From positions 434,001 through 498,000 of the forward strand of contig NZ_JAOVZO020000023.1 of NCBI RefSeq assembly GCF_025717065.2: DNA of 64,000 nucleotides, read 5' to 3'. Below are positions 3,001 through 62,862 of the stretch, one piece after another. Within the stretch, counting starts at the first letter, position 1. The number at the start of each line of letters is the position of its first letter. Below the pieces are notes generated by a model. It worked only from the letters and a program-made list of their open reading frames with translations, was not told the origin of the DNA and did no database searches. Origin of the DNA: Tahibacter soli (GTDB lineage: Bacteria; Pseudomonadota; Gammaproteobacteria; Xanthomonadales; Rhodanobacteraceae). A program made the position numbers and the translations under genes.

Positions 3001-4960
3001 GCGACAGCTCGACGCCGAACCGTGTCCGCACGCGAGAGATCAACTGCGCGGCGAGCAGCGAGTGGCCGCCGAGCGAAAAGAAACCGTCGCGCGGCGAAAT
3101 CCGCTCGACGCCGAGCAGTTCGCGCCAGATGCCAACGAGCTGCCGCTCCGTCTCGCTGCCCGAGTCGTCGTCGCTTCCCGCGTCGCCGTCGCCCGGCGAC
3201 GCGACCGGGTTGTGCCACGCGTCGATCGCGGCCAGTTCGCCGGCCTCGAACAGCTGCCTGCACAGGCTGCGCTGCAGCTTGCCGCTCGACGTGCGCGGCA
3301 CCTTGCCGGCCTTGACCAGCAGCATCGCCGCGATGTCGAAGATCTCGTGCTGCTCGGCGATCTGCGCGGCCAGCCGCGGCATCACCGGGGCCAGCACGAC
3401 CTTCTGCCGCGCTTCGAGCTCCTGCACGATGACGAGGCGCGTACGCGCGCCGTCCTGCACCGAGAACACCGCGCATCCGTTGGCGCGGAACGCCGGGTCG
3501 ACCGCTTCGATCGTCCGCTCCACGTCCTGCGGATAGACGTTGCGGCCGTTGAAGATCATCAGGTCCTTGATGCGGCCAGAAATATACAATTCTTCGTCGT
3601 GGATGAAGCCGAGATCGCCGGTGCGCAGATAGCACGTCGATTCGCCGGCGATCGTCGCGCCGAAGGTGCGCATCGTTTCTTCGGGCCGGTTCCAGTAGCC
3701 CTTGGCGATCGAAGGGCCGTGCGCCCAGATCTCGCCGACGCGGTCGTCCGCGAGCGCTTCGCACGTGACGGGATCGACGATCCGCACGTGGTGGCCGTTG
3801 AGCGCCGCAAGACCCGTCGACACCGTCTCGATGCATTCGCCGTCGACGTCGTGCCGCACGATCCGGCCCGCCGCGAGTTCGTCCTTGCTCACCGGCAGCA
3901 GCGGCGGACGTCCGGGCAGGCGGCTGCAGCCGCTGCTGGAAATCATCAGCGTCGCCTCGGCCATGCCGTAGCCCGGCGTCATCGCGTCGGGGCGCAGGCC
4001 GCACGGCGCGAAGCGCTCGGCGAAGCGGCGCAGCGTTTCGGGCCGCACCGGCTCGGCGCCGTTCAGGAACGTCGTGAGCGAACGCAGGTCGAGCGCGCGC
4101 ATCTGCTCGTCGGTGACACGGTCGATGCACTGGTCGTAGGCGAAATTCGGCGCCGCGGTGAACACCGCGCGGTAGTCCGAAATCGCCTTGAGCCATCGGT
4201 ACGGACGCATCAGGAACGCGGACGGCGCGAACTGCACGCAGTGGCCGGCCGCGTAGACCGCGTACAGGATCATCCCGATCAGGCCCATGTCGTGGTGCGG
4301 CGGCAGCCACGACACCATCGCCTCGCCGGGCGCGACCGGGTGCGCGGCGTGCATCTGTCCGAGATTCGCGAAGAGGTTGCGGTGGCTGACCATCACCCCC
4401 TTCGGCGTGCCAGTGGAACCGGAGGTGTATTGCAGGAACAGCGTGTCGGTCGACCGCAGATACGGACGGCGCCACGGCTCGGAGGCTTCGCCGAGTTCGG
4501 TCGCGCACAGCCACGTGAGTCCGTCGAGCAGCGCGTCGCCGTCGCGGAGTTCGGCGTCCTGCTGCATCTGCCGCATCTGTCCGACGATGGCCGCGGGCGC
4601 CAGCGCGATGCTCGCCCTCGCGTCGCGCGCGATGCCCTGCAGACGCGGGAACGTGCGCGACGTGGTCGGCGGCAGCGCCGGCACCGCGATCAGCCCGGCG
4701 TATGCACAGGCGAAGAACGCGACGACGTAGTCGAGGCCCGACGGATAGACGAGCAGCACGCGGTCCTGCGCCTGCGTCAGCGACTGCAGGTGCGCGGCGA
4801 GCGCGCGCGCCTTGCCGTCGAGCTGCGCGAACGTGAGCGTGCCGCCCGCGTTGTCGCCGTCGTCGAGATGCGTGAACGCGAGATCGTCCGGCAGGCTCGC
4901 CGCGCGCTCGCGCAGAAGGTCGACCAGCGTGTCGGGGTGTGAATGCGTCGATCGGTCCAT
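1..4960 (-). CDS. FAAL-ACP-C-A nonribosomal peptide synthetase, C-terminally truncated by window edge
   Basis: Loading plus first elongation module of a lipopeptide-type NRPS. It reads without a break from ATG at 4960 to the window edge (1653 codons). Residues about 1-570 are a fatty-acyl-AMP ligase with the AMP-binding motif YTSGSTGTPKG at 178 and ISGRIKDLMIFNGRN later on. An acyl/peptidyl carrier domain follows, with phosphopantetheine serine S634 in LGGHSLLA. A condensation domain carries HHIVTDG at 824-830, and an adenylation domain carries YTSGSTGRPKG at 1308, FDVSVWEF from about 1353 and NGKLDRKALP at the edge. Known for the family: FAAL activates a free fatty acid as acyl-AMP and passes it to the carrier; the C domain then N-acylates the first amino acid. 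A GAGGAA ribosome site precedes the start. It lies 43 bp downstream of the thioesterase in the same operon. The next carrier domain and any further modules lie outside the window. Confidence 0.95.
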   Translation of the reverse strand, partial: MDRSTHSHPDTLVDLLRERAASLPDDLAFTHLDDGDNAGGTLTFAQLDGKARALAAHLQSLTQAQDRVLLVYPSGLDYVVAFFACAYAGLIAVPALPPTTSRTFPRLQGIARDARASIALAPAAIVGQMRQMQQDAELRDGDALLDGLTWLCATELGEASEPWRRPYLRSTDTLFLQYTSGSTGTPKGVMVSHRNLFANLGQMHAAHPVAPGEAMVSWLPPHHDMGLIGMILYAVYAAGHCVQFAPSAFLMRPYRWLKAISDYRAVFTAAPNFAYDQCIDRVTDEQMRALDLRSLTTFLNGAEPVRPETLRRFAERFAPCGLRPDAMTPGYGMAEATLMISSSGCSRLPGRPPLLPVSKDELAAGRIVRHDVDGECIETVSTGLAALNGHHVRIVDPVTCEALADDRVGEIWAHGPSIAKGYWNRPEETMRTFGATIAGESTCYLRTGDLGFIHDEELYISGRIKDLMIFNGRNVYPQDVERTIEAVDPAFRANGCAVFSVQDGARTRLVIVQELEARQKVVLAPVMPRLAAQIAEQHEIFDIAAMLLVKAGKVPRTSSGKLQRSLCRQLFEAGELAAIDAWHNPVASPGDGDAGSDDDSGSETERQLVGIWRELLGVERISPRDGFFSLGGHSLLAAQLISRVRTRFGVELSLATLFEAPTIAAMAETIARNGERAPVAAIAPVPRTAALPLSFAQQRLWFLDRLDPAASLAYHLPISVRLRGPLDRTALQAALDAVVARHESLRTHVVTVDGQPMQSIAADAILPLTEHDLRAMTPTQQHEAVTRIGREEAVAPFDLGTGPLIRARLLRLSDAEHVLLVTQHHIVTDGWSIGVLLRDLRALYGAFAQGRADPLAPLAIQYADYAAWQREGLRDDVQRTQTDFWRAQLQGAPALLELPCDRTRPAVRSHRGDRLALAVDARLTAGVRALARRHGVTPFMVLLGAWSALLSRLAGQSDLVIGTPAANRPRGEFEPLIGFFVNTLALRVRLDPDTTVAQLLAQIKATTLSAYAHQDLPFERLVEALNPVRDLRYSPIFQAMLTLDNTPGTGASAWHGLSATATEIDRGTTPFDLSLFLADGGESLDGYLEYATDLFDAATAARYAGHFNTLLAAMVDQDAESVDRLPLLTGDEQRKLLIDFNDTAVDYPEGALVHELFEAQAAATPDAVALVFDGESLTYDALNRRANRLAHRLIDLGIRPDDRVALCLERGMDMVAGLLGVLKAGGAYVPLDPAYPSDRLAYMLGDSAPVAVLTQQSLHARLRELDGAAATLVLDAPDTVSLLARQRDDDPDPRALGLHAGNLAYVIYTSGSTGRPKGVMNQHDGVLNFLHWNRGEYRLDASEHVLQKTPFSFDVSVWEFFVTLTSGARLVIARPDGHQDPRYLGDIVGDEKITLLHFVPSMLQIFLDHADLARCASLRRVLCIGEALPPSLQEQFHRLLPHVELHNLYGPTEAAVHVTFWRCDASLHDGKVPMGRPIANTRLYVLDAHGQPVPIGVAGEIHIGGANVARGYLHRPELTAERFAPDPFSTHADARLYRTGDLGRWLPNGTLEYLGRNDFQVKVRGFRIEPGEIESRLAALLGVREAVVVARDDAAGGKQLVAYVIPAQPAPSVADLRAALAETLPEYMVPGAFVALDAWPLTANGKLDRKALP

Positions 4961-5003
4961 GACGTCTTGCTTCCTCGGGTGTTCTATGGCGCCGGCAGGT
5001 TCG

Positions 5004-5753
5004 TCAGGCGCACTCGCGCTCGACGAGGCCGGCGCCGATGCAGTCGAGCACGGCCTGCTGCTCGGGCAGGATGAAAAAGTGATCGCCGTCGAACCAATGC
5101 ACGTGGCAATCGGAAAGGGTTTCCCGGCGCCAGCCTTCCACCTGTTCGGCGGTGCGGTTTTCGCGCCGGCCGGCCAGCACGGTGATCGGCATCGTCAGTG
5201 GCAGGCCCGGCCGGTACACGTAGTCGTCGACCAGCGCGAAGTCGGCGCGGATCGTCGGCAGCAGGAGGTCCATCAGTTCGCGATGCGCCAGGACGTCGGG
5301 CGGCGTGCCGTTGAAGTCCTTCAGCACGTCGATCAGTTCGGGATCGGGCAGCGCGTGCAGGCGCCGCGACGGTGCGCGGAACTGCGGCGCGTCGCAGCCG
5401 GAGACGAACAGGTGTTCGGGCATCCGCATGTAATGCAGCTTCTGATAGCGCGCGAGTTCGAACGCGATCAGGCCGCCGAGGCTGTGGCCGAAGAACGCGA
5501 ACGGCAGGCCGTCCTGGCGGCCGATGACCGGCGCCAGCGCCCTGATCAGTTCGGGCAGCGACGTGAACGGCCGCTCGGCCATGCGGGTGCCGCGGCCGGG
5601 CAGCTGCACCGCGCACACTTCGATCGCGGGGTCGAGCCGCGCCTGCCACGGCGCATACACGCTCGCGCTGCCGCCGGCGTAGCAGAAGCAGTACAGGCGC
5701 AGGCGCCGCTTCGCGTTCTTCGGATCGCGCACGAGCCAGGGTGACGTGTGCAT
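5004..5753 (-). CDS. Type II thioesterase of the NRPS operon
   Basis: An alpha/beta hydrolase of 249 aa, the normal length for stand-alone NRPS thioesterases (GrsT/SrfA-D type). The nucleophile elbow GHSLGG has S91, and the C-terminal histidine lies in GDHFFI. The N-terminal RLYCFCYAGGSAS segment is the usual start of the family. Type II thioesterases clear wrongly primed or stalled carrier domains rather than release the product. The gene sits between the exporter (9-bp gap) and the NRPS (43-bp gap) on the same strand. A GAGG ribosome site is formed within and just after the stop codon of the exporter gene, so translation is probably coupled. Confidence 0.93.
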   Translation of the reverse strand: MHTSPWLVRDPKNAKRRLRLYCFCYAGGSASVYAPWQARLDPAIEVCAVQLPGRGTRMAERPFTSLPELIRALAPVIGRQDGLPFAFFGHSLGGLIAFELARYQKLHYMRMPEHLFVSGCDAPQFRAPSRRLHALPDPELIDVLKDFNGTPPDVLAHRELMDLLLPTIRADFALVDDYVYRPGLPLTMPITVLAGRRENRTAEQVEGWRRETLSDCHVHWFDGDHFFILPEQQAVLDCIGAGLVERECA

Positions 5754-9034: not shown

Positions 9035-12000
9035 ACGGGCGTCCCTTCGTTCTCGCCCTCGTCCTCGTCGCGCTGCTGGCACCGGCCGACCCGCTGCGCG
9101 CGGCCTGTCCGTCGCTCACGAACTACACGGCGAGCACGCCCGACGCGGCCGGTCATCCGAACGACACGGTGGTCGTCGACAACGCCACCGGTCTGATGTG
9201 GAAGCAGTGCCCCGAGGGCGTGACGAGTTCGAACGCCGCGACGGGCGCAGTGTGCGACCAGGGCGCGATTACGAAGATGAGCTGGGCCGGCGGGCTCGCC
9301 GCGGCGCTCGCGTCGTCCCATGCCGGCTACGCCGACTGGCGCGTGCCGAACATGATCGAGCTGCACAGCCTGACCGACATGTTCTGCTACGAGCCGGCGA
9401 TCAACACGGCGTTCTTTCCCGGCAGCGGAACGGACTTCTACTGGTCGTCGACCTCGTCCGTCGCGAATGTGCTGACCGCCCGGGCCGTCTACTTCCTCAA
9501 CGGTCAGATCAACAGCGTGGGCAAGGGCGTCGGCTACGGCATCCGGCTCGTGCGCGGCGGGCAGGGGCTCGACGCGTTCGCGTCCAACGCGCCACGCGTA
9601 ACGGCGGTGTCGCCCGACAGCGGCCCGAGTGCGGGCGGCACGACCGCGGGCGGCCCCGGCGGCACCGTCACGCTGACGGGCCTGCTGTTCGCCGGCGCGA
9701 CGAAAGTGACGTTCGGCGCGACGGATGCGACGACGTTCACCGTCGCCAACGACACGACCCTCACGGCCGTTCCGCCCGCGCACGCGGCGGGCACGGTCGA
9801 CGTCCGCGTGACGAACGCGAACGGCACGAGCGAGGCGAGTGCGCCGAGCCGGTACACGTATGTCGCGGCGCCGACGGTGACCGGCGTTTCGCCGGACGTC
9901 GGCACGTCGGCGGGCGGCACGAGCGTCGTCATCGCCGGCACGGGCTTTGCGAGCGGCGCGACGGTGCGATTCGGGGCGAGCGCGGCGGCGAACGTGACCG
10001 TCGCGAGCGCGACGCAGATCACCGCGACGACGCCCGCGCACGCCGACGGCACGGTCGACGTGACCGTGACCACGTCGGGCGGTACGAGCGCGACGAGCGC
10101 GGCCGGCGGGTTCACGTATTTCACGGCATCGCCGATCGTCGATTCGCTCGCCGACGGCGTGCCCGCCGCGCCGCTGAACTGCGCGGCGGGACATGCCGGC
10201 ACGTGCCGCCTGCGCGATGCGATCGCCGCCGCGCAGGCGGGGGAAGCGATCGGCTTCGCCGTCGACGGCACGATTGCGCTGGCGGGCGCGCCGCTCGTAC
10301 TGGACCGCAGCGTCGGTCTCGATGCCGGCCAACATGCCGTGACGATCGACGGCGGCGGCAGCGTGACGGCGTTCAAGATCGACGCCGGCGTGACGGCGCG
10401 GATCGAACGACTCACGATCCGAAACGGCAACGCGAGCCAGGCCTGCGCGACCGGCCGCCGCTGCGGCGGCGGTATCCACAACGACGGCGATCTGACGCTT
10501 TCCGGCGTCACGGTGTCCGGCAACGTCGCCGAATACGCCGGCGCCGGCATCTACAGCCGGGGCGCGCTGCGGCTCGTCAACAGCACCGTGTCGGGCAACG
10601 CGGTCGGCGCCGCGGACGGTTCGGGCGGCGGAATCTACAACGCTGGAACCGTCCAACTTTCCAATAGTACCGTGTGGGAAAACGCCGCGGCCTCGGGCGG
10701 CGGCTTGCGCAACGCCGGCGGCAGCGGCGATGCGTCCCTCGTCAACACGATCGTCGGCGGAACGTCCGGCGGCTCCGCGTGTGCGGGCGCTGCGGCGGAT
10801 CTCGGCGGCAATCTGGACGACGACGGCAGCTGCGGGTTTCTCGCCGTCAACGGTTCGGCGTCCGGCGCCGCGATCGATCTGGGGCCGTTGCGGAACAACG
10901 GCGGTCCGACGCCGACGGCGCTGCCCGCACCGGACAGCGTCGCGATCGGCTTCGGCCGCGACGACGCCTGCGCCGACGCATCGAACACGAACGGCGTCGA
11001 CCAGCGCGGCCGCGTTCGTCCGCAAGGCGCGCACTGCGACGCCGGCGCGACGGAAGTGGGCCTGCATACGCTTTCGGTGAGCGTGATCACGCCGAACGGC
11101 GCGGCGGCGAGCACGAACGGCACCGTCGCCGGCTGCAGGAACGGCGGGGGCGACTGTTCGGGCGAATATGCCGCCGAAGGCGAGGGCGTGCCGGTGCTCG
11201 CGGCGCTGACCGCCTTGCCGGACCCGCACTATCACCTGGCCACCTGGGGCGGCGACTGCGCCGCCGACGGCACGGTCGCGATGAACGCCGACAAGACCTG
11301 CACGGTCGCGTTCGCGATCGATACGCACACCGTCGGCGGCAGCGCCGAAGGCCTCGCCGGCAGCGGCCTCGAAGTGCGATTGAACGGCGGCGACGCGCAA
11401 GCCGTGTCGGCCGCGGCTCCGGCGTTCGTCTTCGCGCCGCTGCCCGATCTCAGCGCGTGGACGGTCGCGGTGACCGCGCAGCCGGTCTCGCCGTGGCAGA
11501 CCTGCACGGTCGATGCGGCCACCGCGAGCGGAACGCTCGATGGCGCGGACGTCGCCGATGTCGCGGTTCGTTGCGCGACGAACGCGTACACGATCGGCGG
11601 TACCGTCGCCGGCTTCGCCAACACCGGCTCGAATCTCGCGTTGCGACTCGACGCCGGCGGCGAACAGAACGCGAGCGTCACGCCTGGCCAGTCGGGCTTC
11701 GCGTTCGCGGCGCCGGTCGCGAGCGGTACCGCGTACGCCGTATCGGTCGCGCATCAGCCGCAAGGCCAGTCGTGCACGGTCGTCGCGGGCGCCACGGGCA
11801 CGGTGGGAGGCACGAACATCTCGGACGTGCGCGTCGCCTGCCTGCGCCCGCCGCGGATCGTGATGGCCGTCGGCGACGGCAGCGACTACGCGTCGTACGG
11901 CGGCGTGGCGGAATACGTCGTCCTGCTGACCAACACCGGCGGCGCCGCCGACGGGGTCGCCGTCGCCGCGACGCTGTCGCCCGCGTTCGATGCCGCCGCC

Positions 12001-54860: not shown

Positions 54861-55138
54861 AGCCACCCAAGGCTGGTTTTTGGCGGCGAAACGCGTCCAG
54901 ATACTGCGGCGTTCGGGGTCGTCGCGCGCGACGCGGACGCGAAGGCGGCGTGAGCCGTCCGTAGCGCCGTGGCGACGCGGCTCGACCCGGGCACGTTTAG
55001 TGGCGAAAATAATTTCCGCGATTCAACGATGCCATCCGAGATTGTCGTTGGATTCGATTCCGCAGCGCACGATGCGAGCGACGATGAGCTGCTGGCCTGC
55101 GCATACGCGCGACAACGCCAATATCGATCGCCGTACAG

Positions 55139-55168
55139 TTGCGAATTGTTATACTTATACCTTATATT
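55139..55168 (+). promoter_or_regulatory. Candidate promoter upstream of the SymE-like gene
   Basis: TTGCGA (55139-55144) and TATATT (55163-55168) with 18-bp spacing, in a locally AT-rich patch; the -10 differs from consensus at one base. Confidence 0.4.
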
Positions 55169-55282
55169 CTTTCTCACTCCCAGCCCCCAACGAGAGCAGC
55201 AAGTCGTAGAAAGAAGCGCGGACCACAGGTGCTACCAACACCCATGGCCCGCTAACCACAAACCATTAACACGAGATGGCTT

Positions 55283-55468
55283 ATGGCTACCACCAAGCAT
55301 ACGACACCCGCGCGTCGCCAATCCCCCGACGCCGCCGTACACGAAGGCAATCGTGCCATTCAACGCGCGATCTCGATTCTCGAAAGAAGCACCCGCGCCC
55401 CGAGCATGCTTGCCGACCTCGGCGCAGCAGCAAGCCGAAATGCACGGCAAGGAGCGCGTCATGGCTAA
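55283..55468 (+). CDS. Small ORF upstream of the SymE-like gene
   Basis: A possible 61-aa protein (MATTKHTTPARRQSPDAAVH; then RAIQRAISILERST) that overlaps the start of the SymE-like gene by eight bases. Its first residues echo the MAKTKH start of the SymE-like protein. It could be a leader peptide, a small partner, or not translated. No family is recognised. Confidence 0.4.
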   Translation: MATTKHTTPARRQSPDAAVHEGNRAIQRAISILERSTRAPSMLADLGAAASRNARQGARHG

Positions 55469-55679
55469 GACCAAGCATCGCGCACCGCCGCGCCCCAAGC
55501 GGATCACCGTCAGCACCGCGTTCTATCCGCCGGTCGAACCGTACCGGTACAGCAGACCCTTCCAGCAGGTTCCCTACATCCGCCTGAAAGGCCATTGGCT
55601 CACGCGCGGCGGCTTCGTGCCGGGCACGAAGTTCGATGTGCGGTTTGTCGATGGGTGCATCGTTTTGGTGCCGGTGTAG
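55461..55679 (+). CDS. SymE-family toxin-like protein
   Basis: A 72-aa protein with the SymE C-terminal block: VPYIRLKGHWLTRGGFVPGT, KFDVRFVDGCIVLVPV. AAGGAG lies six bases before ATG 55461. SymE of E. coli is an AbrB-fold, SOS-induced protein linked to RNA cleavage or nucleoid condensation, held down by the antisense RNA SymR; whether an antisense RNA exists here cannot be seen directly. A strong terminator follows. Its place beside repeats, an IS remnant and a nuclease/helicase pair fits an accessory or defence island. Confidence 0.8.
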   Translation: MAKTKHRAPPRPKRITVSTAFYPPVEPYRYSRPFQQVPYIRLKGHWLTRGGFVPGTKFDVRFVDGCIVLVPV

Positions 55680-55692
55680 GGCGCCGCAGTAC

Positions 55693-55718
55693 AAAGCCCC
55701 CGCTTAGCGGGGGCTTTT
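55693..55718 (+). terminator. Rho-independent terminator after the SymE-like gene
   Basis: A perfect stem AAAGCCCCCGC / GCGGGGGCTTT with a TTA loop and trailing T residues. It lies 13 bp after the stop codon. Confidence 0.92.
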
Positions 55719-55737
55719 GCTAGAAATGAACGATGTC

Positions 55738-56160
55738 ACGTCGTCTGAGTGGCCGCGTTGAGGCTGCGGACAGGTCTTGAAGCTCCGTCGACCGAACAAC
55801 TCGCACTCCAGGCTCGCGAAGTCGCCTTCGGCCATCTCGAAGTCATAGGCATCTCCAACGCTTCCCATTGCAACTCCTCGATCTGAGATGTTGCAACGAC
55901 CTGTTGAATCAGCCCGGGTTGCCTTGATCGCGATGGTGGATCACGTGCCGCGGACGCCTTTGCTCTAGCGACATATTCAAAGCGGGCAGCACGAGATTTG
56001 TCGTCATCACTTTTCCCATCGCCCTGCCGATCACACGGCTGCTCTGCATGTCGATCACCACCGCCAGGTACAGGAACCCCGCCCAGGTCGGCACGTAGGT
56101 CACGTCCATCACCCACGATCGTTGTTGACAGGTGTCGTTGTGGGATCGCGCTTGTAACGT
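55738..56160 (-). pseudogene. IS3-family transposase (OrfB) remnant
   Basis: Broken integrase-core fragments in more than one frame: WVMDVTYVPTWAGFLYLAVV and IDMQSSRVIGRAMG in the frame ending at 55909, then pieces resembling SVGDAYDFEMAEGDFASLEC and RRSFKTCPQPQRG further on. These match the DDE region and C-terminal end of IS3-type OrfB, with lost residues and frameshifts (the HSDQGS block reads HRDQGN). No intact ends or orfA were found, so it is an old, dead copy. Confidence 0.75.
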
Positions 56161-56239
56161 TAGTGAAGCACAAGCTTCTGCTGCGACGCAGCACCTTCAG
56201 CTGGGAGGATGCGGTGTTTGATGGCAGTAGGGGACGCGA

Positions 56240-56536
56240 GTGGGGAGGCCTATCGGGCTACCTAGCCCGACGAGTGGCTCGACCGCTGTTGGGTCTAGAT
56301 GGCGACGCGAACTCACTGTGCGGCACTCGTTCAAGGACGCGGTAGGCCAGGCGGCCGAAACGGCCGTCGCGGTCATCTCAGCACGTGCACAGGCCATCGA
56401 AGACATGCTGTCAGCATCTGAGTACAGCCAAGTGCCTGACATGGATCTGGCTGGGCCGTACCGCATCCCCTCGAGTTGCGCCCATTTCTGTTGGAAAAGC
56501 CGTGATAGAGCTCGCGGAGGAGCAACAAGAAAATGA
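56240..56536 (+). CDS. Doubtful ORF preceding the GIY-YIG gene
   Basis: A 98-aa frame whose stop overlaps the next start (ATGA). The middle looks protein-like (AVAVISARAQAIEDMLSASE), but both ends look random. A neighbouring frame gives a better tail (SVGKAVIELAEEQQENDT) ending at 56538, so there may be a frameshift near 56480. No family is recognised; it may be the relic of a third component of the module. Confidence 0.3.
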   Translation: MGRPIGLPSPTSGSTAVGSRWRRELTVRHSFKDAVGQAAETAVAVISARAQAIEDMLSASEYSQVPDMDLAGPYRIPSSCAHFCWKSRDRARGGATRK

Positions 56537-57015
56537 TACGTAGCTACGGAGTTCACTGGCACATCGACCGCGTTTTCTGGGGAAGGCCAAATAACGCAGG
56601 GACACTGCTCGGTGCTGCAAGCCGAAGTCCTCGAGCTATACCAGTCGATTTTCGCGAACAGCGTGGCATCTATGCTTTGTACGCCGATTATGATTTGGTG
56701 TATGTTGGCCAAACGGGAGCCGGCAACGATCGGCTATTCCATCGCCTTAAATGCCACAGATCGGATCACCTCTCTGAAAGGTGGAATCGCTTCTCATGGT
56801 TCGGTACACAGTGGGTTACGCAACGTCATGAACTATCCACAGATACAGCCGCTGTACACCAAACTGTAGAGGCTGCGCTGAATATGCTGGAAGCAGTTTC
56901 GGTCGCGATCTCAGAGCCACGATTGAACTTGCAACGTGGCAGATGGGGGGACACGACGCAGTATTTCCAGTGGTGGGAGCGTCTGGCGAGCGAACAAGGA
57001 GAGGACGATGTATAG
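56533..57015 (+). CDS. GIY-YIG nuclease domain protein
   Basis: A 160-aa protein with GIY at 45-47 (RGIYALYADYDLVYVGQTG), YVG at 57-59 in place of YIG, a following arginine-bearing helix (GNDRLFHRLKCH) and a late glutamate E120 in LEAVSVAISEPRLN. These are the elements of the single-metal GIY-YIG nuclease fold. The N-terminal part (HWHIDRVFWGRP) is unrecognised. It lies 154 bp upstream of the helicase-nuclease gene, and both have AT-richer codons than the rest of the window. Probable nucleic-acid cleavage role in a defence-type module. Confidence 0.8.
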   Translation: MIRSYGVHWHIDRVFWGRPNNAGTLLGAASRSPRAIPVDFREQRGIYALYADYDLVYVGQTGAGNDRLFHRLKCHRSDHLSERWNRFSWFGTQWVTQRHELSTDTAAVHQTVEAALNMLEAVSVAISEPRLNLQRGRWGDTTQYFQWWERLASEQGEDDV

Positions 57016-57169
57016 ATTCTTACGGGTCGAGAATGGTCGTGGAACTCTTTGTCAAAAAGGGGCGGTCGAGACTTCGAAGGTTCGTCAATAACGCGATTCC
57101 GTTGAGCAGTAGCCTTCCAGTTACCAGCTCAATGAGATGTCATCGTTAATATTTGCCAGGGGAAAGGCC

Positions 57170-59689
57170 ATGGTGGATTTCAAAATAATAAATCCCGGTC
57201 CCGTCGGCGGTAAACCGATCGACCCAATTCAGCTGTATGATACGCTAGATAGGTCCGTCGAAAAGGGGCCGCTGAGACCTGCACAAGATGCTGTGCTTCG
57301 AGAGTGGTATGATTCTCGACGCAACGAGAAAGATGTTCTTATTAAACTGCACACGGGCCAAGGTAAGACCCTGGTGGGGCTGCTTATTTTGCAGGTGCAG
57401 CTTAATAAGAATGAAGGTCCTGCTGTATACCTGTGCCCTGACAATCAACTTATTGACCAAACTTGTGATCAGGCGCGACAGTTCGGAATTAAGACGTGTC
57501 GAACCGACGGAGATCTGCCGGATTCCTTCCTCGATTCTAAAACCATTCTTGTTACGTCCATTCAAAAGCTTTTCAATGGTTTGACGAGGTTTGGCCTCAA
57601 GCGCAACTCTATTAGGGTAGGGGCGCTCTTGATGGATGACGCGCACGCATGTTCCGACGCCATACGAGAAGCATGTAAGATTCGAATTTCTAGCAACGAG
57701 CCTGCTTATGCAGTATTGCGGGAGCTATTTGCCACTGACTTGGAACAGCAGGGTGTTGGTACTTTTGCGGACCTGATAAATGGCTCCAGAGATGCGGTCC
57801 TGCCAGTGCCATACTGGTCTTGGAACGCTCATGTTTCTGATGTAGCACGCATCCTGTCGGATCACTCAGACAAGAAGTCTATCAAGTTTGCATGGCCACT
57901 GTTGCGTGACAGGCTAAGGTCGTGTCAGTGCGTGTTCTCAGGAGTGGCCGCCGAAATAGAGCCTTTCATCGCACCGCTGGAGGACTTTGGAAGTTATGCA
58001 AATGCCGAACATCGTATATTCATGTCGGCCACAGTCACCGATGATGCTTTTCTTGTAAAAGGGCTGAAACTAGATCCATCCACGATCACCAAGCCCATCT
58101 CGTACTCAAAAGAGCGATGGTCTGGCGAAAAGATGGTTCTCCTGCCTGCTTTGATTAGCGATGCGCTCGATAGAGCAACTATTGTGAGAACGTTTGGTCG
58201 AATGGTTGCCAATAGAACGTCTGGCGTTGTTGTTCTGGTGCCGGGATTTGACTGGACGCACGATTGGGAGAAGTACGGAGCGCGCGTTGCCAAGAAGGAA
58301 ACCGTCACGCAAGAGCTTGAGCGACTGAAGAGAGGGAGCTACGCTGAGACAGTTGTTCTCGCTAATCGTTACAACGGAATTGATTTGCCGGACGATACTT
58401 GTCGCGTCTTGATTTTTGATGGTAAGCCTTTCTCTGAGAATCTGATTGACCGAAACGAAGAAAGTTGTCGCCCGACTAGTGTGACGACGCTGATGCGGGC
58501 CATAAGAACCGTTGAGCAAGGTATGGGGCGTAGCGTAAGGGGTGAGAAGGACTACTCAGTTATCGTTGTAACTGGCGCCGAAGTAACGCGGTTGCTAAGA
58601 GAAAAGGTCTCTCGTAGCTTCCTTTCGTCGCAAATGGCGATGCAAATTGAAATCGGTCTAGACATCGCCTCAATGGCACAGCAAGAGATCGTGTCCGGCA
58701 AAGAGCCGTTCGAGAGTTTTATGGGATTGATCATGCAGTCCCTGAGGAGGGATGATGGGTGGAAGAACTATTACGCATCGCGGATGGCAAATGTCCTTCC
58801 ACGCGGGCCGAACGAGACGGTGCTAAAAATTTACACCGTTGAGCTTCAAGCCGAGCGGGGATTTTCGCAGGGTGACTATGGAGTGGCCACCAAACTCATC
58901 CAAGAATTGCTCGATACTGTTGATGGATCGACGGAGGACAAGGGATGGTATTTGCAGATGATGGCACGCTTCAACTATGAGACGAATCGTCCTGAATCCG
59001 AGCGCCTCCAGTTGGCGGCGCATAAGTGCAATCGGTCACTTCTGAAGCCTGCTCATGGAATAACGGTCACGAAGTTAAACGTTATTAGTCAGGGGCGAGT
59101 TGAAAGAATTATTGCCTGGGTTCGCCGATTCAATGCTTACGACCAACTCAATGTCGCCATTACTGATATCTTATCGAATTTGCGGTTCGGGGTGGCGTCA
59201 GATCGTTTTGAGAACGCTTTGAATGAGCTAAGTTCTGCGCTCGGTTTTGGCGGCGAACGCCCCGACAAGGAGTGGAAAGAGGGGCCCGATAATCTGTGGG
59301 CACTTGACGATAACCACTATGTCATCTGGGAATGCAAGAATGAAGTTGAATTGACGCGCAGTGAAATTAATAAGCGCGAAGCCGAACAAATGAATAGGTC
59401 AATGGCGTGGTTTATAAAGCACTACCCAGGAGTGCAGTCTAGAAAGTTGATAGTGCATCCATCTTACAAAGAGGGTAGCGCGGCGTCTTTTCTTCACGAA
59501 GTTGAGGCGGTTAGATCGGCGGAACTATCGAGCTTGACTGCGGCGATTTCCGGGTTCTTCAAATCGTTCGAAGGCGTTGACTTAGCTGACCTTTCTCCGG
59601 CGCATGTACAAAGTCTGCTCGACTCTCACAAGCTTACTGTAGGGGATTTTCTGTCTAGATTTGGCAAGAAGATTAAGCGACTGGTTTAA
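57170..59689 (+). CDS. SF2 helicase fused to a PD-(D/E)XK-like nuclease domain
   Basis: An 839-aa protein. Helicase motifs: I HTGQGKT (K66), II LLMDDAHAC (D156-H159, a DDAH box), III MSATVTDD (S286) and VI QGMGRSVRG (Q450, R454, R457). A helical stretch follows at about 470-680. The C-terminus has a nuclease-like pattern: EGPDNLWALDDNHYVIWECK, with D707 and E721-x-K723 as the PD-(D/E)XK triad, and a basic helix after it (EINKREAEQMNRS). ATG 57170 has AGGGGAAAGG just before it and is preferred to ATG 57137. Such ATP-driven helicase-nucleases are typical of phage-defence and restriction systems. I could not match the architecture to a named system. Confidence 0.85.
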   Translation: MVDFKIINPGPVGGKPIDPIQLYDTLDRSVEKGPLRPAQDAVLREWYDSRRNEKDVLIKLHTGQGKTLVGLLILQVQLNKNEGPAVYLCPDNQLIDQTCDQARQFGIKTCRTDGDLPDSFLDSKTILVTSIQKLFNGLTRFGLKRNSIRVGALLMDDAHACSDAIREACKIRISSNEPAYAVLRELFATDLEQQGVGTFADLINGSRDAVLPVPYWSWNAHVSDVARILSDHSDKKSIKFAWPLLRDRLRSCQCVFSGVAAEIEPFIAPLEDFGSYANAEHRIFMSATVTDDAFLVKGLKLDPSTITKPISYSKERWSGEKMVLLPALISDALDRATIVRTFGRMVANRTSGVVVLVPGFDWTHDWEKYGARVAKKETVTQELERLKRGSYAETVVLANRYNGIDLPDDTCRVLIFDGKPFSENLIDRNEESCRPTSVTTLMRAIRTVEQGMGRSVRGEKDYSVIVVTGAEVTRLLREKVSRSFLSSQMAMQIEIGLDIASMAQQEIVSGKEPFESFMGLIMQSLRRDDGWKNYYASRMANVLPRGPNETVLKIYTVELQAERGFSQGDYGVATKLIQELLDTVDGSTEDKGWYLQMMARFNYETNRPESERLQLAAHKCNRSLLKPAHGITVTKLNVISQGRVERIIAWVRRFNAYDQLNVAITDILSNLRFGVASDRFENALNELSSALGFGGERPDKEWKEGPDNLWALDDNHYVIWECKNEVELTRSEINKREAEQMNRSMAWFIKHYPGVQSRKLIVHPSYKEGSAASFLHEVEAVRSAELSSLTAAISGFFKSFEGVDLADLSPAHVQSLLDSHKLTVGDFLSRFGKKIKRLV

Positions 59690-59948
59690 TAGCGCTGACT
59701 TGAAAGAGCACCGTTTTGTGCAGATTCTTTTGTCCGAATCCAAATTCGATTTTGCAGGCTGTTGAGAAGCCCTGATTTCTAGCGACAATGATGGAGCCAG
59801 CCTATCTCGAGACCGTTCGGTGCGCGGTGGGCATTTGCAAGAATTGGGAAGTTTTCGTTGTGTTGGTGGAATCGAGGATCCCGGCTGATCTATTCCTTCA
59901 TTGTTGAGGGCTTCCACCCTTGGCGCTCCGCCAGTTGTGCCAGCGCAC
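59690..59948. other. Intergenic region after the helicase-nuclease
   Basis: About 260 bp of AT-richer sequence. A minus-strand frame here reads GFSTACKIEFGFGQKN and could be a transposase tail, but it is too short to assign. No terminator hairpin with a T-run was seen. Confidence 0.4.
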
Positions 59949-60515
59949 TTACTCAAGCCCGTCCATACGCAAGAAGTTCACCCCAAAATCAATCACCAGA
60001 TCCAGATTCAACACCGCATTCGGGTACCCCGATTCGATATTCAACGTCGAGAACCGCACTGCGTTGTCGCCGTTGACGAGTTCCGCGAGCGGAACGTCGA
60101 TCGCATGGCTATAGCCGCCGGTCTGCCCGGGCGTATCGATCATCGCCGTCTCGCCCGGTGTGAACGGGCGCACGTGGATCGGCGCGTCGTTGAGCTGGTA
60201 GCGCAGCCTCCCGGTGCCGAGCCGGATGCCGTTCGTGCCGCAGCCCTGGTAGTAACCGTTGAACACGAGCCGCGCGCGCGTCGCGTTCGCGAGCGAGACG
60301 TTGCGGAACGTCAGCGGCGCGCTCAGCGTCGAGGCGCTGTTCGGGATCACGTAGCCGAGGCTCAGCCCGTTGTGCACCGTCGTGTGGAACGTGCCCGGCG
60401 GATATTCGTCGGTCGTCGTGCGCGTCGACGGAACCTCGGCACCGGGGATCTCGTATTCGCGCGTCCCCGTGATCGCCGGTCCGGCGAAGCCGATGCTGTC
60501 CCAGGACAGATTTCA
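59949..60515 (-). pseudogene. 5'-truncated secreted beta-sandwich protein fragment
   Basis: A C-terminal fragment of a secreted protein, read from about 60515 (WDSIGFAGPAITGTREYE) to a stop at 59949, about 185 aa. Strand-rich sequence (ARLVFNGYYQGCGTNGIRLG; AMIDTPGQTGGYSHAIDVPL) suggests a carbohydrate-binding-type sandwich. It ends VNFLRMDGLE, similar to the IFRDGFE tail of gene 9031-12240. An in-frame stop lies just upstream of 60515, so the gene lost its 5' end before IS66 landed 20 bp away. Confidence 0.6.
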
Positions 60516-60525
60516 CGACCGCAGC

Positions 60526-60533
60526 GGTCGCGG
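60526..60533 (+). repeat. Target site duplication, left copy
   Basis: GGTCGCGG flanks the left end of the IS66 element and is repeated exactly at 62855-62862. Confidence 0.9.
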
Positions 60534-60579
60534 GTAAGCGTCCGGCGCCGCCACATTCTCGAACCCGATCATCAGAGCA

Positions 60580-60915
60580 ATGCTTGTCGCTCACCTTCTC
60601 AGAGCGCCAAACGTGCAAGCATCGAAGACCGAAGCATTCTGGCGTCGTCACGTTGAGGCGTGGCGATCAAGCGGCCTGACGCAGAAGCAATATGGCGCCA
60701 AGCTTGGTATCAATGCGTTGACGTTGGCGCATTGGAGCTACCTGCTCAAGCGCAAGTCGAGCACGCCTGGGCAGGCTCTGGTGCCGGTCCGCGTGGTCGG
60801 CAACACACTGCCGGCGACCATCGAGTTGCAGCATGGCGCCTGGCGTATCGCCGTGCCGGTCGGAACGGATCCACGCTGGCTCGCTGCATTGATCCGCGAG
60901 ACCTCGGCATGTTGA
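60580..60915 (+). CDS. tnpA: IS66 TnpA accessory protein
   Basis: A 111-aa protein with a helix-turn-helix type N-terminal part (KTEAFWRRHVEAWRSSGLTQ, KQYGAKLGINALTLAHWSYL). In IS66 it is one of two accessory proteins needed for transposition. The annotated ATG 60580 may be a little early: GTG 60613 would give the usual short start before ASKTEAFW. Its end overlaps tnpB by seven bases. Confidence 0.85.
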   Translation: MLVAHLLRAPNVQASKTEAFWRRHVEAWRSSGLTQKQYGAKLGINALTLAHWSYLLKRKSSTPGQALVPVRVVGNTLPATIELQHGAWRIAVPVGTDPRWLAALIRETSAC

Positions 60916-61247
60916 GCCCGACGTCGTGGTGGATCGCGGTGGAGCCGATCGATCTGCGTCGTGGCATGGATGGCTTGTTGACGGCGATTGCGATGCAGTT
61001 CGGTCACGACGGACTCGCCGGTGGCGCGTACGTGTTCCGCAATCGCAGCGCCACGCGGATCAAGGTGATCTGCGCCGACGGCAGCGGCGTGTGGATGTGC
61101 GTGCGGCGCTTGCGCGAAGGCCGCTTCGTCTGGCCGCGCAGCAGCGATCGCGTCTGCGAGATCGACGCGCAATCGTTCGCGTGGTTGTGCACCGGCGTGG
61201 ACTGGCATCGGTTGTGCGCAAAACCGCTGGTCGGCGCGCTGGTATAA
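60909..61247 (+). CDS. tnpB: IS66 TnpB accessory protein (Orf2)
   Basis: A 112-aa protein with the family signature IAVEPIDLRRGMDGLLTAI, then VFRNRSATRIKVICADGSGV, GRFVWPRS and a terminal segment before the stop at 61247. It is the second accessory protein of IS66 elements. Start ATG 60909 overlaps the tnpA stop, indicating coupled translation. Confidence 0.9.
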   Translation: MLSPTSWWIAVEPIDLRRGMDGLLTAIAMQFGHDGLAGGAYVFRNRSATRIKVICADGSGVWMCVRRLREGRFVWPRSSDRVCEIDAQSFAWLCTGVDWHRLCAKPLVGALV

Positions 61248-61262
61248 CTTTACAATCGGCGC

Positions 61263-62804
61263 ATGAGTGTTGATGTATCGACCAACGACGATCTGCAAAC
61301 GCGGTTGCGCGAAGCGCTGGCTGCGTTGGCTGACCGCGATGCCCTCATTGCTCAGCGCGATGCACAGATTACCGAGATGGCAGCGGTCGGCGCTTACCGC
61401 GCCGCGCGCATCAAGGTTCTCGAAGCACAGATGGCGGCGATGAACCGCGCCCTGTACGGCCGCCGTTCCGAACAACTCGACCCGGCCCAGCGGCAGCTGT
61501 TCGAGGAGTCGCTCGAAGAAGACATCGTCGCGATACAGACGGAGCTGGAGACGCTCAAGGAATCGCCGTCTGCACAGCGTCGCCAACCCAAGCGCCTGCC
61601 GTTGCCGGAACACCTGCCGCGCGAGGAGGTTCGTCACGAGCCCGCCTCGTGCACGTGCACGCAGTGCGGCAACGCGCTGACGCCGATGGGCGAAGACGTC
61701 ACCGAGCAGCTCGACTGCAAGCCGGCCGAGTTCTTCGTGCGCCGTCACGTCTATCCGAAGTACGCGTGTCGCGCGTGCGAGACGGTGACGGCCGCTCCGA
61801 GCCAGGCGAGTGTGATCGAACGTGGCCGACCGGCGCCGGGCCTTCTGGCACACGTGCTGGTCGGCAAATACGCCGATCACCTGCCGTTGTATCGTCAGCA
61901 GCAGATCTACCAGCGCAGCGGCGTGGAACTGGCCCGTTCGACCCTGGCCGACTGGACCGGCGCCGCCGGCGTCGCGCTGATGCCGCTGGTGTCTGCGATG
62001 AAGGCCGATCTGTTGCAGCGCCCGGTGATCCACGCGGACGAAACGCCGGTTGCGCTGCTCGATCCGGGCGCGGGCAAGACAGCACGTGCGTATCTGTTTG
62101 CCTACTGCGCCACGGACGGACCGCCGATCACGATCTTCGACTTCTGCACCAGTCGCAGCGGCGAGCATGCCAAGAACTTCCTCGGCGCCTTCCGTGGCCA
62201 TCTCGTCGTGGACGACTACGCCGGCTACAAAGCCCTTTTTGCAGAAAACATCACCGAAGTGGGCTGCTGGGCGCATATTCGCCGCCTGTTCTTCGAGTTG
62301 CATGCGGCGAAGGCCAGCGCGCACGCTGAACCGGCATTGCGCCAGATCGCCGAGCTGTACCGGATCGAAGCCGAGATCAAAGGTCTGGATCCGCCCGAAC
62401 GGCTTGCCCGACGACAACGCGATGCGCAACCGGTGCTCGATGCGTTCGAGCAATGGATCGACAACCTGTTGTCTGCCGCTTCACCCAACAGCGGCCTCGC
62501 CAAAGCGCTCGCGCATACCCGCAAGCGCTGGCCGGCGCTCGTGCGCTACGTCGACGACGCTTCGCTGCCCATCGACAACAACCCGGTCGAACGTTCGATC
62601 CGGCCCATCGCCGTGGGTCGCAAGAACTGGCTGTTCGCAGGCTCCAAAGCCGCCGGCGAGCGTGCCGCCGCGATCATGAGCCTGATCGCCACCGCCAGGC
62701 AGAACGGCCATGAGCCTTACGCGTATCTCAAGGATGTGCTGACCCGCCTGCCGACACATCCCGATCGGCGCATCGCCGAACTTCTGCCGCACCGCTGGGG
62801 CTGA
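61263..62804 (+). CDS. tnpC: IS66-family transposase TnpC
   Basis: A 513-aa DDE transposase. It has an N-terminal leucine-zipper-like helix (LREALAALADRDALIAQRDA), a zinc-finger region CTCTQCG...CRACE, the sequence IHADETPVALLDPG with the first Asp, VVDDYAGYKALF with the second, and a C-terminal block DDASLPIDNNPVERSIRPIA with the third catalytic position, followed by NWLFAGSKAAGERAA. Full-length and uninterrupted, so the element is probably active. Confidence 0.95.
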   Translation: MSVDVSTNDDLQTRLREALAALADRDALIAQRDAQITEMAAVGAYRAARIKVLEAQMAAMNRALYGRRSEQLDPAQRQLFEESLEEDIVAIQTELETLKESPSAQRRQPKRLPLPEHLPREEVRHEPASCTCTQCGNALTPMGEDVTEQLDCKPAEFFVRRHVYPKYACRACETVTAAPSQASVIERGRPAPGLLAHVLVGKYADHLPLYRQQQIYQRSGVELARSTLADWTGAAGVALMPLVSAMKADLLQRPVIHADETPVALLDPGAGKTARAYLFAYCATDGPPITIFDFCTSRSGEHAKNFLGAFRGHLVVDDYAGYKALFAENITEVGCWAHIRRLFFELHAAKASAHAEPALRQIAELYRIEAEIKGLDPPERLARRQRDAQPVLDAFEQWIDNLLSAASPNSGLAKALAHTRKRWPALVRYVDDASLPIDNNPVERSIRPIAVGRKNWLFAGSKAAGERAAAIMSLIATARQNGHEPYAYLKDVLTRLPTHPDRRIAELLPHRWG

Positions 62805-62854
62805 CTATCGCGGCTGATGTGGTTGTGGGGAAGGTGGTGAGGCCGAGCGCTTAC

Positions 62855-62862
62855 GGTCGCGG
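62855..62862 (+). repeat. Target site duplication, right copy
   Basis: GGTCGCGG, identical to 60526-60533, immediately after the right inverted repeat. Confidence 0.9.

Follow-up and report, generated by a model that had tools for sequence, protein, structure and literature searches.

Hachiman and Gabija are helicase-nuclease systems. Hna, whose name stands for "helicase-nuclease abortive infection" and whose founding paper is that of Sather et al., as cited in PMC13381803, is described in that paper for Sinorhizobium meliloti as a single effector which suffices for protection, which forms an ATP-bound, auto-inhibited homodimer via HEL1 that is split by a phage single-stranded DNA-binding protein (SSB), which degrades DNA only if its 3' ends are single-stranded and does not unwind duplexes, and whose toxicity to the cell follows its nuclease activity. 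The present work concerns two neighbouring genes in a 64,000-nucleotide stretch of Tahibacter soli DNA (positions 434,001 to 498,000 of contig NZ_JAOVZO020000023.1, called the window below), one encoding a small GIY-YIG protein and the other a superfamily 2 (SF2) helicase fused to a PD-(D/E)XK nuclease, which a sequence-only reading had put forward as a candidate new anti-phage module without a match to any named system. The locus is very probably the known single-gene defence system Hna beside a GIY-YIG nuclease gene that is unrelated to it and moves independently, and what is new here is one more Hna ortholog only. The features at issue are the following.

56533-57015, plus strand: stand-alone GIY-YIG-type nuclease gene, 160 amino acids; the family appears mobile by itself; neighbour of hna, partnership not demonstrated.
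57016-57169, plus strand: gap of 154 nucleotides between the GIY-YIG gene and hna; no attC, promoter-like or terminator-like consensus detected.
57170-59689, plus strand: hna, Hna-family helicase-nuclease, 839 amino acids; SF2 HEL1/HEL2 and C-terminal PD-(D/E)XK; listed open reading frame start at 57137.

Both open reading frames (ORFs) exist where the sequence-only reading had placed them, the listing giving plus-strand frames at 56533-57015 (160 amino acids) and 57137-59689 (850 amino acids as listed). A PDB search with the larger protein returned a sole strong match, an 845-amino-acid sequence common to 10uj, 9yhn and 9ykj (chain 10uj_A against residues 12-848, E=0), and the data statement of PMC13381803 assigns 10UJ to the Hna monomer and 9YKJ to the dimer. 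The top PADLOC model for the protein is PDLC04986 (PDC-S28; E=5.2e-296, 982.4 bits, residues 12-846 against positions 1-827 of the 831 in the profile), and the same model ranks first with S. meliloti Hna (E=0) and with a Lysobacterales relative (E=1.3e-293). The window protein and the pSymA-encoded S. meliloti Hna can be aligned over their full length at 59% identity (844 columns), and a further Hna, encoded in a metagenome bin of Lysobacterales (NCKB01000003.1, L006/L037), is 82% identical over 839 positions. The claim that the pair fits no named system therefore falls for the larger protein, since it matches Hna by the PADLOC model and by its 59% identity, and a strong match to an existing model, PDC-S28, is also what the PADLOC check on novelty yielded. 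The candidate new system is thus reassigned as a Gammaproteobacterial ortholog of Hna, 59% identical to the one whose structure has been solved.

The motifs named in the sequence-only reading hold up in this comparison. In the 839-residue numbering the SF2 motifs include a Walker A sequence, GQGKT, at 63-67 and a DDAH box at 156-159, and K66, D707, E721 and K723 are all correctly assigned. In the alignment the ATP-coordinating residues R36 and Q39 are conserved, and the nuclease residues P706, D707, E721 and K723 fall opposite P712, D713, E727 and K729 of S. meliloti Hna. Those four nuclease residues, together with R36/Q39 of the ATP site and T30/D31/P34 of the dimer interface, were mutated in S. 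meliloti Hna, according to PMC13381803. On all the features that sequence can test, the dimer interface aside, the larger protein is a member of Hna. The start at 57170 (MVDF..., 839 amino acids) is likelier than the listed one at 57137; it is favoured because it agrees with the S. meliloti and Lysobacterales relatives, because DNA similarity begins there, and because a purine-rich Shine-Dalgarno-like stretch, AGGGGAAAGG, precedes it.

Other assignments of the larger protein were rejected. A new helicase-nuclease family is ruled out by the PDC-S28, PDB and 59% identity matches to Hna. Defence helicases such as type IV DinG and Shango SngC resemble the window protein in the helicase domain, and type IV DinG, SngC and Cas3 were set aside because the matches to them are weak and limited to that domain; the best of these PADLOC models, typeIV_DinG, scores 63.5 bits compared to 982.4 for the Hna model. 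Neither Hachiman nor Gabija matched the window protein among the ten PADLOC families listed. A scan of genome contigs with Hna as the query returned one locus.

Given the 59% identity and the conserved active sites, the window protein may be expected to work by the mechanism described for S. meliloti Hna. By analogy, it would rest as an ATP-bound, auto-inhibited homodimer held by HEL1. During infection, a phage SSB would compete for the dimer interface and split the dimer, which would free the C-terminal PD-(D/E)XK domain; the freed domain would then degrade single-stranded DNA in the 3'-5' direction, and the cell would abort the infection.

Other loci were examined for the two genes lying together. 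A six-frame search with a profile of the GIY-YIG family found no member in the available sequence flanking Hna or Hna-like genes at 18 further loci (21 locus records), eight of them from sampled genomes and ten from plasmid records picked among the matches listed (40 of 248); 12 of these loci carry Hna at 41-82% identity and six carry Hna-like genes at 26-34%. The profile recovered 4/4 control loci, three of which had been used in building it. In the reverse direction, tblastn found no Hna in 26 stretches with GIY-YIG relatives, some of which are close to one another (L045/L046, L081/L082), while the control was found. The S. meliloti locus on pSymA, which lies in another host (the window genome belongs to the family of Lysobacterales bin G010), has no GIY-YIG gene within its 4-kb flanks, whereas the window hna lies downstream of one. 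The Lysobacterales bin locus with the 82% identical Hna likewise has other genes upstream and no GIY-YIG relative, and its DNA similarity to the window runs only from 57170, exactly the hna start codon, to 59678. The check on neighbourhood conservation thus went against the proposed module, the pair being adjacent at none of the 18 Hna or Hna-like loci and in none of the 26 GIY-YIG stretches.

Two partly overlapping samples of genomes were also searched. In the phylum sample, Hna was found in 6/398 genomes (E<=1e-20) and the GIY-YIG family in 11/398 (E<=1e-3), the two occurring together only in the window genome; in the order sample the counts were 5/398 and 8/398, and the two occurred together in the window genome and in one other, G759. 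In each sample, none of the 397 other genomes has the two on one contig. Two weak helicase matches (G030, G040) were excluded before counting, as were three weak partial GIY-YIG matches (G524, G549, G721) which nevertheless stand among the 8/398 of the order sample, none of them in a genome with an Hna match. The Hna match in G218 has one TGA counted inside the alignment, and the ORF itself has 846 codons for amino acids without an internal stop. Because the samples overlap and are small for genes as rare as these, the flank, DNA-similarity and stretch tests outweigh them. In the literature, no link between Hna and GIY-YIG turned up, the texts containing both words being mitochondrial or mitogenome papers by title, among the matches listed. 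A conserved GIY-Hna operon was rejected on the lack of adjacency at the other loci searched, co-occurrence counts alone not being decisive. Hna is a system of one gene, to which no GIY-YIG partner is regularly attached at these loci, and the two genes of the window seem to be neighbours by chance or through association at the level of the island.

The GIY-YIG protein is the less familiar of the two. Its residues G45, I46, Y47, Y57, G59, R71, E120 and N132 are invariant in 8/8 aligned members including the window copy; in a second set of eight with more distant viral members, the same residues are invariant except I46. An AlphaFold model of the protein, of moderate confidence (mean predicted local distance difference test score 62.7), has strands at 45-51, 54-60 and 86-91 and helices at 68-75 and 108-127, in the beta-beta-alpha-beta-alpha order expected for a fold like that of the UvrC N-domain, and the top five Foldseek matches of the model are all UvrC GIY-YIG domains, weak at E 0.63-1.3. 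In Pfam the window protein has no match, the best among the eight members being PF01541 in one of them (E=0.002, below the cut-off), and sequence searches of Pfam, PHROGs and the PDB gave nothing useful. The PADLOC candidate model PDC-S14 matches weakly, over a segment of about 50 residues that includes the GIY-YIG motif (E=0.0049 for the window protein and 3.3e-4 for the relative at L057). The close relatives are those of G656 at L056 (88% identity), of G443 at L057 (76%) and of viral contig L044 (76%, or 80% in the best segment). Longer relatives, extended at the N-terminus by about 100 residues, occur at eight loci, the L032 copy being broken, and on plasmid pDMC2, where the gene is annotated as a helix-turn-helix domain protein. 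Chance can be excluded for both genes of the window, because of the full-length PDB match of Hna at E=0 and the GIY-YIG relatives at 88%, 76% and 76%.

Several of these relatives lie next to attC sites. In G443, the gene occupies 9399-9884 of L057 and has an attC site on either side, at 9283-9370 and at 9879-9968; IntI stands at the head of this array. The array as a whole (L057:8112-18373) has 17 plus-strand attC sites by a covariance model which was trained on this one array, on 13 of the 17 sites, and the GIY-YIG gene is an early cassette in it. On viral contig L044, the gene lies between attC-like sites at 4373-4459 and 4960-5055, and the first ORFs look terminase-like by eye, so that L044:4373-5055 is an apparent integron cassette within a phage or prophage. 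In G656, an attC site ends at 9460 of L056, directly upstream of the GIY-YIG gene at 9478, and a further one lies at 9043-9102. At L079 one attC match overlaps the start of the GIY-YIG gene, probably by chance. An Aeromonas integron with a GIY-YIG cassette, possibly of another family, has been described in PMC10609294.

Relatives also occur among phage structural genes. In two Synechococcus phages (L045, L046) they adjoin the portal gene, and at L081:621-5510 and L083:3556-7652 they lie beside ORFs that appear terminase-like by eye, the L083 copy between a terminase-like and a portal-like one; phage structural clusters are perhaps a recurring insertion place for GIY-YIG genes. A third setting, also judged by eye, is at L023:1491-11037, L078:2-7576 and L079:1-6576, where in a recurring order the GIY-YIG gene follows type III restriction-modification (RM)-like genes and overlaps or adjoins the end of the modification gene; the next ORF in L078 and L079 is large (696-697 amino acids) and overlapping. 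The arrangement may represent an accessory pair of type III RM. The GIY-YIG family appears to be mobile independently of hna, and as a small nuclease family carried as integron cassettes and phage genes it offers a modest lead.

The window copy is similar in length to the cassette genes of L057, L044 and L056, has the same start and is 76-88% identical to them; they have adjoining attC sites, whereas the window copy has none detectable. A motif-and-fold scan of 55000-60700 gave three matches (55853-55909 on the plus strand, 57456-57585 and 55533-55637 on the minus strand), none adjoining the GIY-YIG gene. The covariance model, run with filters off over 55500-60600, gave 19 matches at E<=10, the best at 8.0 bits (E 0.6), and the match nearest upstream of the gene, at 56256-56347, has 6.5 bits (E 1.7). 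By the same model the L056 sites reach 26.1 and 23.7 bits, compared to 16.5 for the best match in the 64-kb window, which was taken as noise. Both methods are imperfect, the covariance model having missed both L044 sites and the scan the L056 site at 9406-9460. No integron integrase was found above the cut-off in the window genome. A present integron cassette was therefore rejected for the window gene, since neither scan nor covariance model places an attC site next to it. Most likely the window GIY-YIG protein acts on DNA as a small nuclease by itself and arrived separately, and Hna can probably do without it.

Several observations weigh against reading the locus as Hna beside an unrelated, independently mobile gene. 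The flanks available at the Hna loci span about 1-10 kb, and the plasmid loci covered come from 10 of 248 records that have Hna. In G759, distant relatives of Hna and of the GIY-YIG protein (the latter within a 269-codon open frame) do occur in one genome, on separate contigs, where over 90 kb separates either of them from the nearest contig end. An attC site adjoins the GIY-YIG gene at only 3/13 GIY-YIG loci examined, so carriage in integrons may not extend to the whole family. Of the dimer-mutant positions T30/D31/P34, the window protein has V30, E31 and P34, positions 30 and 31 being variable across nine aligned proteins; because T30 and D31 are replaced by V and E, this Hna may have a different dimer interface and sense another range of phage SSBs, and the two changed residues could help to map the determinants of that range. 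Finally, the two genes lie on the same strand, 154 nucleotides apart with no terminator-like site between them, so they may be co-transcribed. The same arrangement favours the explanation that the GIY-YIG gene and hna act together as a two-gene module, and a partner nuclease would be chemically plausible because S. meliloti Hna cuts only single-stranded 3' ends and unwinds no duplex. That explanation is nonetheless highly improbable, since the adjacency is seen in the window only (0/18 loci, 0/26 stretches and 0/397 genomes in each of the two samples) and since in S. meliloti one effector, Hna, gives the protection, as PMC13381803 reports. Two points of the proposed anti-phage module survive, the membership of the larger gene in a family of anti-phage helicase-nucleases and its position in AT-rich DNA with mobile elements on either side; the conserved pairing does not.

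There are two further explanations of the GIY-YIG gene, neither of which requires a partnership. It may be a single-gene anti-phage nuclease itself, so that two independent defence genes share one island. Integrons collect defence genes, and relatives of the gene occur in integron arrays and behind type III RM genes (L023, L078, L079); the weak PDC-S14 match also points this way, though it covers only some 50 residues. CMoRE (PD-T4-3) is a precedent for a single-gene GIY-YIG defence enzyme and has the GIY-YIG nuclease domain in common with the window protein, which, however, reads GIYALY and ends soon past the nuclease domain, without the C-terminal sensing domain described for CMoRE in PMC12923530. 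Since members of the family also lie among phage structural genes, like free-standing phage nucleases or homing-type genes, a defence role of its own is rather unlikely for the window gene. It is less likely still that the gene, once an integron cassette or a phage gene, is now a decaying remnant without function: the lack of a detectable adjoining attC site and, in the genome, of any integron integrase scoring above the cut-off, together with the IS3 remnant close by, would fit decay, but the frame is full-length, the catalytic positions are kept and identity to the close relatives is 76-88%. As a tentative extension of the favoured reading, in which hna stands alone and the GIY-YIG gene is mobile by itself, the small GIY-YIG family could be an uncharacterised single-gene nuclease acting in conflicts between bacterium and phage and between phage and phage, with the window copy simply parked beside Hna.

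Neighbouring genes vary among the annotated Hna loci. At the rhizobial loci L041:6638-9683 and L042:6660-10541, three downstream genes are common and in the same order (two TcmP-type and one DUF5131-type in the annotation of L042), and because L041 and L042 have these genes in common, some Hna loci can be said to have local conserved neighbours. In the window, the flanks are as the sequence-only reading had claimed, with a SymE-like C-terminus and an insertion sequence (IS) remnant with an IS3-type rve domain on one side and an IS66 element on the other, and both genes are AT-richer than their surroundings, the G+C fraction being 0.53 in the GIY-YIG gene and 0.50 in hna compared to 0.68 in the whole window.

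54969-55679, plus strand: ORF with a SymE toxin family C-terminus (residues 191-233).
55912-56112, minus strand: IS3-type transposase remnant, a fragment of the rve integrase core.
About 60534-62856, plus strand: IS66-family element; transposase 61263-62804; four copies in the genome including the window copy.

The first 190 residues of the ORF at 54969-55679 have no Pfam match, and the true SymE-like gene may begin further down. The ORF at 56240-56536 (98 amino acids), upstream of the GIY-YIG gene, was considered as a third gene and has a single weak plasmid match (E=0.09). The IS66 element has three further copies at 98% in the window genome, and was for this reason probably active recently.

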